From Litomosoides sigmodontis (taxonomy: Eukaryota; Nematoda; Chromadorea; Rhabditida; Onchocercidae): 64,000 bases of DNA. The stretch spans positions 1,662,772-1,726,771 of the forward strand of contig OY718804.1 of NCBI GenBank assembly GCA_963070105.1, given 5' to 3'. Of the stretch, positions 3,543 through 44,075 are shown piece after piece. Below the pieces are notes generated by a model. The model saw only the letters and a program-made list of their open reading frames with translations. It was not told where the DNA came from and made no database searches. The position numbers and the translations under genes are program-made. Each line of letters opens with the position of its first letter. Position 1 is the first letter of the stretch.

Positions 3543-5228
<1,686 letters not shown>

Positions 5229-6654: not shown

Positions 6655-10750
<4,096 letters not shown>

Positions 10751-10778
<28 letters not shown>

Positions 10779-11468
10779 AAACTCTTTTAATAATTTTTCA
10801 ATTAATGATTTTAGACGAAAAAAATAAAAAACAATTAGCATTGCTAGGAATGCTCGACGTACGCTAGCCGTTGCGGACATAAACTCTTTTAATAATTTTT
10901 CAATTAATGATTTTAGACGAAAAAAATAAAAAACAATTAGCATTGCTAGGAATGCTCGACGTACGCTAGCCGTTGCGGACATAAACTCTTTTAATAATTT
11001 TTCAATTAATGATTTTAGACGAAAAAAATAAAAAACAATTAGCATTGCTAGGAATGCTCGACGTACGCTAGCCGTTGCGGACATAAACTCTTTTAATAAT
11101 TTTTCAATTAATGATTTTAGACGAAAAAAATAAAAAACAATTAGCATTGCTAGGAATGCTCGACGTACGCTAGCCGTTGCGGACATAAACTCTTTTAATA
11201 ATTTTTCAATTAATGATTTTAGACGAAAAAAATAAAAAACAATTAGCATTGCTAGGAATGCTCGACGTACGCTAGCCGTTGCGGACATAAACTCTTTTAA
11301 TAATTTTTCAATTAATGATTTTAGACGAAAAAAATAAAAAACAATTAGCATTGCTAGGAATGCTCGACGTACGCTAGCCGTTGCGGACATAAACTCTTTT
11401 AATAATTTTTCAATTAATGATTTTAGACGAAAAAAATAAAAAAAACAATTAGCATTGCTAGGAATGCT
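10751..11468 (-). repeat. 102-bp tandem repeat, seven units, spanning the annexin B start codon
   Basis: Units begin at 10751, 10853, 10955, 11057, 11159, 11261 and 11363, exactly 102 bp apart and nearly identical. Read on the minus strand, each unit holds the ATG, eight further annexin codons (MSATASVRR) and about 75 bp of upstream sequence. Because 102 is a multiple of three and no unit contains an in-frame stop, the frame stays open from 11390 into the annexin. The outermost unit has two extra A residues and then runs into unique sequence (AACAGCG), marking the ancestral upstream edge. Each unit contains the short inverted repeat AGCATT-CCTAGC-AATGCT. The proximal unit alone continues into the annexin body. 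Confidence 0.95.
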
Positions 11469-14211
11469 AACAGCGAAAACACATCAAAAAAAGATTTTTT
11501 TTTAGCATTAAATTGTATTATGATTTTTGTATAGAAAAAAATTTTATTGATTATCATAGAAGTTGCTTGAAACCATAACTTATCAAAAAAAGTTAGCAAA
11601 TTAACTGATAAATAGCTAACGAAAAATATTTTCTTTCAATAATGTTTTGTAAATTTTTTAAAAAAAAAAAGAAATGAAAAAGAAAACTAATAGGCCGTAA
11701 ATGAAGCCAAAAAAAAAAATATTAAGACAAGGAGAACATGATCATCGAAATACTAGCACGAAAAAAATGAAAAACTTCATTTTTTAAATTAACAAAGAGT
11801 TTCAATGAATTTTTGAAAAATCATTAATGAAATAAAAGAAAAATTGAAAAAGAAAAAGTGAAATTGAGAAGAATTGGGAAAAAATAGGATTTTACTTCTA
11901 CTAAAATACAAAAAGGCTATCAATAACACCGTAACTGAGAAATTCTCATTTTTTCCCTCATATCTCTCTCCCTCTCGCCTCCTCTCTCTCTCTCTTTCGA
12001 CCTTTCTCTCCCGCCTTTTTTCTTTCCCATAAAATTTCCTTTATCCAAAAAAAAAAGGGAAAAAGCGAAATTGTTTTTCTAGCGAATCTCTTTCCTTCCT
12101 TTTTTTTCCATTTGAATTCATTCATCTTGTGAAATTCAATTCGACAAAAATGCAAAAAGTGGAAGAAGGAGGAGGAGGAAGTGAAAATCGGAAAATGGGA
12201 AATTTATTGTTATCGAAATGATTTTTTTCGTCCATTTTTTTCTTTTCCTTTATTGTTTAATGAAAAAAAAAAATGTTCAATGTCAATGACATCTGAATGT
12301 CTCTCTCTCTGTCTCTCTCCGTCTCTCTCTCTCTTTTCCTGTCTTTTTTTTACTTTATTTTTCGTTGTTTTTTTTTCTTTTGTATAATAAATTTTTGTGA
12401 AATGATGAGAGAAATGGGATCAGGATGAGAAGCAAACGATCAGAAGCATTGATTTATATTTAATAGGTTTTTTTTAAAAGTTTTAGAATTTGAAATGAAA
12501 GAGCAAAATAGTGTTGCTCAGTGCAAATGGACGATGAACGGATTGCGTGAATTGATGGAGGAAAAAATTTCAATGTAAGGCAGTATTTTGTGCTATTTAA
12601 AAATTATTTAATAATTTCATTTTCATTTAATATTTTTTGTATTTTTGTTTAAATTTGAAAATATTTAGAATTGTACTTGTATGGTTATGTCGTTGTTTTT
12701 TTTTTGAATTGAAATTGAATTAAATTGATAGTGCTAATTCCTATGCAAAGAGCTGTTATCAGAGTGATGGAATAATCCAGAAGTTTAGAGAGTGCTTGAA
12801 TTCTGATTTTCATTTAAATTACGTGCGTGAATGAATGTCTTTTCAAGGAGCGCAAAAAAAAGCAGAACAAATGCTAAATTAGATATTAAATTCAGTTTAA
12901 TGTCAAAATATCATTTAATTTTCTTTTAAATCACCGCCGCACAATTTACATATTTTAACTGGTAATGCAAATTTAGCCATTGAAAACTCCACGTGGTACT
13001 ATTTACAAAATGTATTCTATGACATTTGTGAATTTTTTTTTGTGAATTTTAAATTGCATTGAAATTATTTTTAAGTGAAAAAAAAATGAATGCGGAAATT
13101 TGAGCACTTGCTTTTTTTTCACACACACACGAAAAAAAAAAGCTTTATCTAAAAAGCAATCGTAAAAAACAGGTTGTAAAATTTAAATTGATCAATTGAT
13201 ATGACATGACATATGCAAATTACAGCCCAAAAATGAAGAGAAAAATGCAAAAAGAGCTAAGTGATAGCAACAGGTGTGATAATGGTAGTGATTTAATGGC
13301 GATAATCAATAGTAGTGACCAGTGGTAGTAGTACTGATAAGAGTTAATAATCACTGACAGTTACTGTCAAACTACGAGACATGCGAACATAATGATAAGT
13401 TTAGTGATACGCTATCATCATAAACTTGTAGGAGCAGATAAAAGGGTGCAACAGGTTAGAGATGAGATAATTTTTTTTTAATTAAAAATTCTAAAGCATT
13501 TAAAATGTGAAATGGTAACATTGATCAATCCATCAAATTAGTTATTTAATGAGTTTTGTTCATTGATTATTATTTTCTTTTCAAAAGAGCATTGAGTAGA
13601 TATTGAGATTTGTAATACTAATTATTACGTGTTAACAGAAATTGAAAACTAACTGTACGGTACGATTGAAGTAATTTTCAAAAAAAAAAAAAGAAAAAAA
13701 ATTGAAATTTCAAATTTGTTATCTCAAACATCTTACATACATTATGAAAAAATAATATGAAATTTTAATTTATAATATGAATTATACTTCTTCGTACTAT
13801 AAAATTACATTTGATAAAGATGAAAATATAATCCACGTAACTCACGTATTAATCGTATAATGTACAAACGTAACGCTGTTTTTAATGCTATCAGTGAGTG
13901 AAGGAAAAATTTGCTGAAAAAGATAAGATTAAATTTGTATTACTGTAATCCCTCCGTAACATATTTCTTTTCTCTTTCTTCTTTTTTCCCACGTTAAACT
14001 CGTCCAATGCTATTTGCGTGTAACTACGTGTACTTTGTAACTACGTGCAAACGTGCCAATGCACAATTGAAATTATTAACGAAACATAGCGGTTGTTGTT
14101 AGTTTTCTTATCCATTGAATGTGTTCAATGCTATTATATTACTACTATTAGCTTTAAGCTTAGAAGCTGAGGTGGCAGCAACGAGTTACATTGTGTTATA
14201 AATTGCAGTGA
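11469..14211. other. Non-coding spacer between the annexin genes
   Basis: AT-rich with several poly-A/poly-T runs, CT-rich tracts at 11955-12015 and 12297-12345, and no frame resembling a known protein. It presumably includes the annexin B promoter. Nothing more specific was seen. Confidence 0.6.
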
Positions 14212-14219
14212 ATTATGGA

Positions 14220-14486
14220 TGATAGCGAATTGAGAGTGATAGCGAATTGCGAGTGATAGCGAATTGCGAGTGATAGCGAATTGAGAGTGATAGCGAATTG
14301 CGAGTGATAGCGAATTGCGAGTGATAGCGAATTGCGAGTGATAGCGAATTGCGAGTGATAGCGAATTGAGAGTGATAGCGAATTGAGAGTGATAGCGAAT
14401 TGCGAGTGATAGCGAATTGCGAGTGATAGCGAATTGCGAGTGATAGCGAATTGAGAGTGATAGCGAATTGAGAGTGATAGCGAATT
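14220..14486. repeat. 17-bp minisatellite, about 15.5 copies
   Basis: Tandem units of GATAGCGAATTGMGAGT, where M is A or C. The order of the variable base over the 15 full units is A C C A C C C C A A C C C A A. The array lies about 490 bp downstream of the stop codon of the annexin at 14971-19065. The open frame across it (17-residue period) is a repeat by-product. Confidence 0.97.
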
Positions 14487-14970: not shown

Positions 14971-19065
<4,095 letters not shown>

Positions 19066-38759: not shown

Positions 38760-42640
<3,881 letters not shown>

Positions 42641-44075
42641 AATTTCTTTTTATTTTCCTAGCAGTTTCACTGTACATATAAATCAAACTATAAATGTGCA
42701 TATTATTGTTTAGCAATAGCTTTCCTACCACGTATGCTACGAAATTGATTTTGTTACGAAAGCAAATGAGTGTTACAAAATTATCGAACCAATCATTAGT
42801 CATTTGGCGGAATTGTTTTTGAACTTTATTGAAGTTTTTTGAATCCATTCATTTTACCAATTCTTTTTTGAGGATACCTTACACAACTTCATCAATTTCG
42901 CTTATCTTACTCTCCTTGCCAAACACACGAAAAAACGAGCCCAACGCTTTTTTTTTGTCTACACTCTTAATACTGAAATTTACTGCATACTTTACTCACT
43001 GTTATCACTCTGTCATCTTCTATTAGCGATTTTAGCAAAAATAATCAAAATCAGAAATTTCTTCGATAGGAAAATTTCAACTTCGCCATTGATGTTATCT
43101 TATATGGTTTTACTTTTGGGCTTAAATTTTTTGCTCAAAATATGCTATTATACGAGAGAAGTGAGAATGCCGCCGATTGCACTCTGAGGATTCTTCAATA
43201 TCTCCTCGCATCACTGAGTGATCATAACTTATCACATGATAAGTATTACATTTGCCACCGCCCACCTTTTTTACACTCCTGCACCAGCAGCTGCATGAAA
43301 ACGGACATTCATCCCACTCTCATCCTACTACATTTGCTCACTTCCACATTTTTTCATGTATTAATTTCACTTACATTCATCTACGTTATGGCGATACTTT
43401 CCAATCACCATCTTAAATTGCAAAAAATTGAGGAAATTATACAAAAATTAAGTTCCCACTTCTTTATCTGAAAATTTCCACAGAAAAAATACATACATGC
43501 ATGACCAATCATGGGTGTTAATATGGGGAACAATAAGTTGAATTAAGCTTTTTTTAACATAATATTTTAAATTTCAGACACAATAGAATCAACAATCCAA
43601 TATATTAAATAAAGTCAACAATCCAATATATCAAATAAATTCAATAATCCAACACACCACAATTTTTTCCTTGACTGGAAGAAAATTCTGTTCACATGCT
43701 AGATTCTCCGGTCTCATCGACCATCCAGTTTTTTAGAATCGCAAAACCCTACTAAGCATTTCGTGCAATGTTTACTGATTTACATGTCACCCTTATGCCA
43801 ATCAAGTCTATCCATTAGGGAGTATCAACAATGATTGAACACTTCCTACACAACAAACAGGCCACCGACAAACATTAAATGAGTACACAAACGATTGTCA
43901 GAAACAGTCAATCCTAAAATTCAGCTACCGCAAATTAGTAAACGTCCAAAAAATGTAAAAACAACAAAAAATGAGAAAGTAATGCCATCTATTTTCTCTC
44001 CTTTACTGGCTAGAATGGATAAATGATAAATGGACAGAACTGAAAACTAAATCAAAAAATGCTAATAATAAAATC
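42641..44075. other. 3' flank of the helicase gene, no gene seen
   Basis: Unique AT-rich sequence. Three copies of a 26-bp unit (TCAACAATCCAATATATTAA plus six bases) start at 43589, 43615 and 43641, the last degenerate. A 109-codon open frame at 43142-43471 shows no recognisable similarity. Confidence 0.55.

Follow-up and report, generated by a model that had tools for sequence, protein, structure and literature searches.

A probably young minisatellite repeats the leader and start codon of a divergent annexin gene in Litomosoides sigmodontis

How did an annexin gene come to carry its start codon seven times in one open frame, and what does such a gene make? The stretch of DNA analyzed here (the window; 64,000 nucleotides, to which all coordinates refer), from a filarial worm of rodents, contains a minus-strand array that TRF reports at 10751-11468, with a period of 102, 7.0 copies, and 99% matches. 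Unit-by-unit comparison resolves 10751-11466 into seven head-to-tail units, and the two approaches together confirm the seven in-frame units proposed in the initial annotation. Each unit consists of a 74-bp leader (76 bp in the outermost) followed by ATG TCC GCA ACG GCT AGC GTA CGT CGA G, and the unit ATGs lie at plus-strand coordinates 10778 (unit 1, the proximal unit, 10751-10852, joined to the annexin coding sequence), 10880 (unit 2, 10853-10954), 10982 (unit 3, 10955-11056), 11084 (unit 4, 11057-11158), 11186 (unit 5, 11159-11260), 11288 (unit 6, 11261-11362), and 11390 (unit 7, the outermost, 11363-11466). An exact 102-bp period with almost no divergence had been described; this holds for units 1 to 6, which are identical 102-mers, but not for the seventh, which differs by an indel and is 104 bp long, with AAAAAAAA replacing AAAAAA (two additional A residues in a homopolymer). 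From 11390, the reading frame runs into exon 1 without a stop. The near-identical head-to-tail units are of the 10- to 100+-bp size that defines a minisatellite or variable number tandem repeat (VNTR), and the array has both the period divisible by three and the open frame expected of a coding VNTR. The junctions read TGTTAG|CATTCC at the outer edge, GTCGAG|CATTCC between units, and GTCGAG|GCACAA at the inner edge, so the duplicated ends have only AG in common.

An array of 718 bp fits well inside a single HiFi read. The inferred source of the window, assembly nxLitSigm11.1, is described as a PacBio HiFi assembly from one female, with 65.9 Mb in six scaffolds of 10.3-11.7 Mb plus the mitochondrion and a QV of 52.9, or one error per 194 kb (PMC10817185). 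Because of this data type and quality, we consider it very improbable that the seven units are an assembly artefact or a wrongly expanded repeat, even though six identical units are difficult for short reads and an older L. sigmodontis protein (P0001), from a 6-kb contig, begins at the proximal ATG. Copies and junctions are directly visible in this one assembly, and the copy number is that of one genome. A search of the 65,877,608-bp, seven-contig assembly with the unit, which skips very common words and therefore gives lower bounds for match counts, found no match beyond these seven at E <= 0.001.

The gene has six exons on the minus strand and encodes a 332-residue annexin: exon 1 runs from the proximal ATG (10611-10778, ending CAAATG|gtgatc), followed by exon 2 (10065-10214), exon 3 (9060-9284), exon 4 (8781-8927), exon 5 (7207-7308), and exon 6 including the stop (6655-6861). 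A TA/TG array (10270-10386) lies within intron 1. The protein matches Pfam family PF00191 with 143.8 bits (cut-off 25) in four stretches, the four repeats expected of an annexin, and 76 distinct sequences of solved structures match it at E <= 0.001. GxGT motifs mark type II calcium sites, and annexins that are independent of calcium still count as annexins. The window protein has no such motif (searched as G.G[TS]), and neither do the eight close homologues that were checked for it (P0002-P0007, P0009, and P0011; seven filarial and one Thelazia), which indicates a shared loss and no peculiarity of L. sigmodontis; elsewhere there is one in P0012 and two each in Toxocara P0019 and Steinernema P0024. 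The earlier description of the gene as a divergent annexin is supported.

Exon 5 is itself 102 bp long and present in most aligned filarial homologues. It is missing, in frame, from P0001 and from Dirofilaria P0010, is present in P0005 from the same Dirofilaria species, and marks the point at which Loa P0013 diverges and the partial Acanthocheilonema P0014 stops; its absence reflects either the same annotation error made more than once or exon skipping that these worms share. We also considered a kinship between the repeat unit and exon 5, which share their length and a passing likeness (SVRRAFLAML versus SARRALLALI), in a comparison chosen after the likeness had been noticed. We take it as chance, because at the DNA level 60 of 392 window segments align equally well with the doubled unit, and the protein score is equalled in 55 of 500 shuffles of the whole protein; when only exon 5 is shuffled, such scores are rarer (21/1000 for DNA and 21/2000 for protein), which points the other way.

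The annexin has company in this genome. A tandem paralogue lies upstream in the same direction (14974-19065, minus strand), a third annexin gene is located on contig C5 near 7.21 Mb, and weak matches occur at further places, one of them near 2.04 Mb on C5. An operon with the upstream paralogue is not favored, because some 3.5 kb separate the array from the paralogue's end near 14974, whereas operon genes of Caenorhabditis elegans are about 100 bases apart (PMC1657053). Other repeats in the window include a minisatellite between the two annexins (14220-14486; 17 bp x 15.7, 97%), some 0.5 kb beyond the stop codon of the paralogue, and very long trinucleotide arrays with 96-100% matches at 4-831 (276 copies), 3993-4888 (299), 15916-16788 (291, within an intron of the paralogue), 38760-39358 (158 plus 43), and 41279-42641 (452).

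Where the annexin itself begins is strongly indicated by its homologues. A search with the window protein returned 76, among which P0001 is identical letter for letter throughout exons 1-4 and over the greater part of exon 6 (alignment identity, 99%); it skips exon 5, has a different end, and starts at the proximal ATG. In the alignment of 15 sequences (the window protein and P0001-P0014), M1 is invariant and residues 2-9 vary, with the N-terminus of P0009 shorter by two residues and that of P0012 by three. A similarly short tail is found in 25 of the 27 N-termini examined (P0001-P0027), a count in which P0001 itself is included and Dirofilaria and Acanthocheilonema are each represented by a second entry; the exceptions are P0016, a fragment lacking the N-terminus, and P0027, a long-tailed annexin. 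The source contigs of five entries (P0012, P0015, P0017, P0018, and P0020) are about 1.0-1.4 kb long and probably represent transcripts. The repeat unit is absent from all 27 (26 with an N-terminus). Because the homologue N-termini are short and M1 is invariant, the comparison strongly supports the proximal ATG (10778-10776) as the inherited start, in agreement with the initial annotation's view that it gives a normal annexin. The ten filarial and Thelazia entries P0002-P0011 (from Elaeophora, Wuchereria, Acanthocheilonema, Dirofilaria, Onchocerca, Cercopithifilaria, Brugia, Setaria, and Thelazia) share the annexin core and start with the window protein and, unlike the window locus, none has an N-terminal extension or repeat.

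The DNA between the repeated starts does not resemble coding sequence. In a small coding model (three annexins from the same genome, 923 codons in all, set against nearby introns and intergenic DNA), in which hydrophobic segments can score low, the 24 leader codons average -0.32 bits per codon. Of 104 overlapping coding windows left out of training, all except 1 score higher; among open non-coding windows, the leader stands at the 63rd percentile. The nine codons that begin with the ATG are coding-like, at +0.57 bits per codon. GC content is 19% in the leader, 38% in coding sequence, and 26% in local non-coding DNA; the leader part of the unit lacks a coding-like composition, from which we infer that it is non-coding in origin. 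The hydropathy threshold for a membrane helix is near 1.6. Six 34-residue repeats with a hydrophobic core had been proposed; the open frame that they require is there, but the core, AFLAMLIVFYFF, is a codon reading of the T-rich TTTTTTATTTTTTTC and its neighbors, and the extension's 19-residue Kyte-Doolittle maximum of 1.64 is borderline. Open 25-codon windows make up 1682 of 8982 overlapping windows (19%) in local non-coding DNA, and the chance that a duplication there is both open and in frame is about 6% (19% x 1/3 for the period). Neither the 34-residue unit nor the extension matched any of 7,997 scored database candidates, which were limited to about 295-938 residues and drawn from a database that may omit the current L. 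sigmodontis gene set. The idea that the extension has already been shaped by selection is thus not borne out: the leader scores as non-coding, the unit is absent from the homologues and from these candidates, and the coincidence required is of the order of 6%.

These properties bear on whether the array enters the mature message at all. The array could be a promoter or outron VNTR, with the message beginning just before 10778 and copy number affecting expression only; the leader's GC content, closer to non-coding than to coding DNA, and the short start implied by the homologues are consistent with this, and the paralogue has a homology-defined acceptor ending in AAAG, like the TTAAAAG within each unit. 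We nevertheless regard it as unlikely. The acceptor-like sites of the internal units are weak, with TTAAAAG the best at 0.3 and others at -0.3 or lower, and if one is usable then all units have it: trans-splicing or a transcription start within one internal unit would leave the remaining units carrying an identical signal. The unit also has no notable fold (z of 0.40, with 130 of 200 shuffles folding as well), and no Rfam family reaches its gathering threshold in the window, findings on which a structured RNA in the unit was rejected.

The better acceptor-like sites are at the array's outer edge or farther out, so that scanning ribosomes would meet the distal in-frame ATGs. A T-rich stretch ending in AG (GCTGTTAG; 11467-11484, minus strand) abuts that edge and is acceptor-like in a model built from 13 to 15 homology-defined sites, in which the acceptor at 11466 scores 5.2 (94th percentile of AG sites), 4.5 (91st), or 3.9 (87th) with 13, 14, or 15 training sites, respectively. 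A second acceptor-like site, with its AG just before 11457 and 9 bp inside the outermost unit, also scores 3.9. In leave-one-out scoring, the 15 homology-defined acceptors range from -4.3 to 8.1 (median, 5.2), including -4.0 for training acceptor A4, which ends TTTAAAG. Within 10700-12500, the sites at 11604, 11897, 11900, 11934, and 12038 score at least as high as 11466, with 11457 about equal, and across the minus strand 381 of 63,982 positions reach its score. We therefore take the acceptors as a hint and not as proof, the model being small, one training site scoring poorly, and so many positions scoring equally; the argument is a weak one, because the scores moved with the training set and other sites do at least as well. 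An in-unit donor (AGC|GTACGT) scores 2.4, at the 62nd percentile of GT sites and within the range of nine homology-defined donors (0.9 to 6.7); skipping through this donor is possible but not favored, the internal units having no good acceptor.

The starts available to such a message are more numerous than the seven first described. All seven unit ATGs are in one frame, but the total is 13 including the proximal start, none followed by an in-frame stop before exon 1, as each of the six internal leaders contributes one more ATG in this frame (ATGCTAATT, encoding the M of AFLAM) at 11351, 11249, 11147, 11045, 10943, and 10841. In the outermost unit, the additional 2 bp put this second ATG (11455) out of frame, and it opens a 10-codon upstream ORF (11455-11426, stop 11425-11423) that ends before 11390. 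In a message beginning just outside the array, ordinary scanning would meet 11455, then 11390, which has T at -3, and then the remaining ATGs; any in-frame ATG distal to 10778, from 11390 inward, would give an extended annexin. If the outer-edge acceptor-like sites are used, long forms would be the main product and not a side product, which counts against the explanation that we prefer below.

That the array is translated as the main product, from mRNAs beginning at or above 11457-11466 and with starts at 11390 or a later in-frame ATG, is nonetheless doubtful. The product would be an annexin lengthened by as many as six 34-residue repeats, or 204 residues, that might act as signal or membrane segments; tryptic peptides of the unit would include AFLAMLIVFYFFR, SLIEK, and EFMSATASVR. 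The two outer-edge acceptor scores against the best in the internal units, the 13 uninterrupted in-frame ATGs, and the low probability of an open in-frame array by chance all argue for it; the non-coding composition of the leader, the lack of any such extension in the homologues examined and of the unit among the scored candidates, the out-of-frame ATG and the T at -3 that attend 11390, the borderline hydropathy, and the many positions scoring as well as 11466 argue against it. This account agrees with our preferred explanation on the origin of the array and differs on its product.

The explanation that we prefer, with a probability of about 0.6, is that the array is a young minisatellite of the gene's 5' end, composed of leader and the first nine codons, and that it is tolerated rather than selected. 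A 102-bp segment (74 bp of AT-rich leader, the first nine annexin codons, and one base) would have been duplicated across the 2-bp AG match and then expanded to seven copies, probably recently, through slippage or unequal exchange. With a period divisible by three and a leader that happens to lack stops, each added unit contributes in-frame starts and leaves the gene unbroken. The identity of six units supports the suggestion that the amplification is recent or homogenized, and we infer one or the other; the repeat most likely arose by recent, ordinary expansion. Selection could instead account for the in-frame period and the open leader, which chance would give only about 6% of the time. As a likely consequence of the young minisatellite, the 5' leader would vary in length with copy number and translation would give the normal annexin, with mRNAs begun outside the array yielding additional forms lengthened by as many as six 34-residue segments.

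The initial annotation rightly left the choice between a coding VNTR and a 5' untranslated region VNTR open, and the effect of the array may be that of a mostly untranslated leader VNTR or that of a ladder of N-terminally extended annexins. As far as the sequence goes, the worm might make an annexin whose N-terminus carries a hydrophobic extension of variable length. Less probable than any of the accounts of the message given above is a stronger version, in which untranslated leader DNA, amplified together with the start codon, has become a repeated segment of the protein, with the annexin N-terminus forming a ladder of 0-6 extra 34-residue units. If true, the signal-like hydrophobic core after MSATASVRR could send a normally leaderless annexin into membranes or the secretory route, and a translated array would represent new protein sequence born of leader DNA through start-codon amplification. 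If untranslated, the array would be a start-region minisatellite and a possible length marker, and gene predictors choosing the longest frame could add 204 spurious residues.

Neither this array nor start-codon amplification appears in the titles or abstract openings of the open-license publications among the matches listed (for precedents, filarial and L. sigmodontis annexins, and filarial trans-splicing), and the closest comparisons are with two known kinds of repeat. Coding minisatellites, such as mucin-type VNTRs, lengthen proteins in whole units. Like these, the annexin array has a period divisible by three, an open frame, and near-identical units; mucin-type VNTRs sit inside coding sequence, however, whereas the annexin unit is about three-quarters leader DNA and its translation is putative. 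The second comparison is with human thymidylate synthase (TYMS), in which the repeat units end before the ATG; the annexin units, in contrast, include the ATG and nine codons, are longer, and are in frame. What the two arrays have in common is their position, for in the TYMS enhancer region, as in the annexin gene, tandem repeats (28 bp in TYMS) lie shortly upstream of the start codon (PMC7712088).
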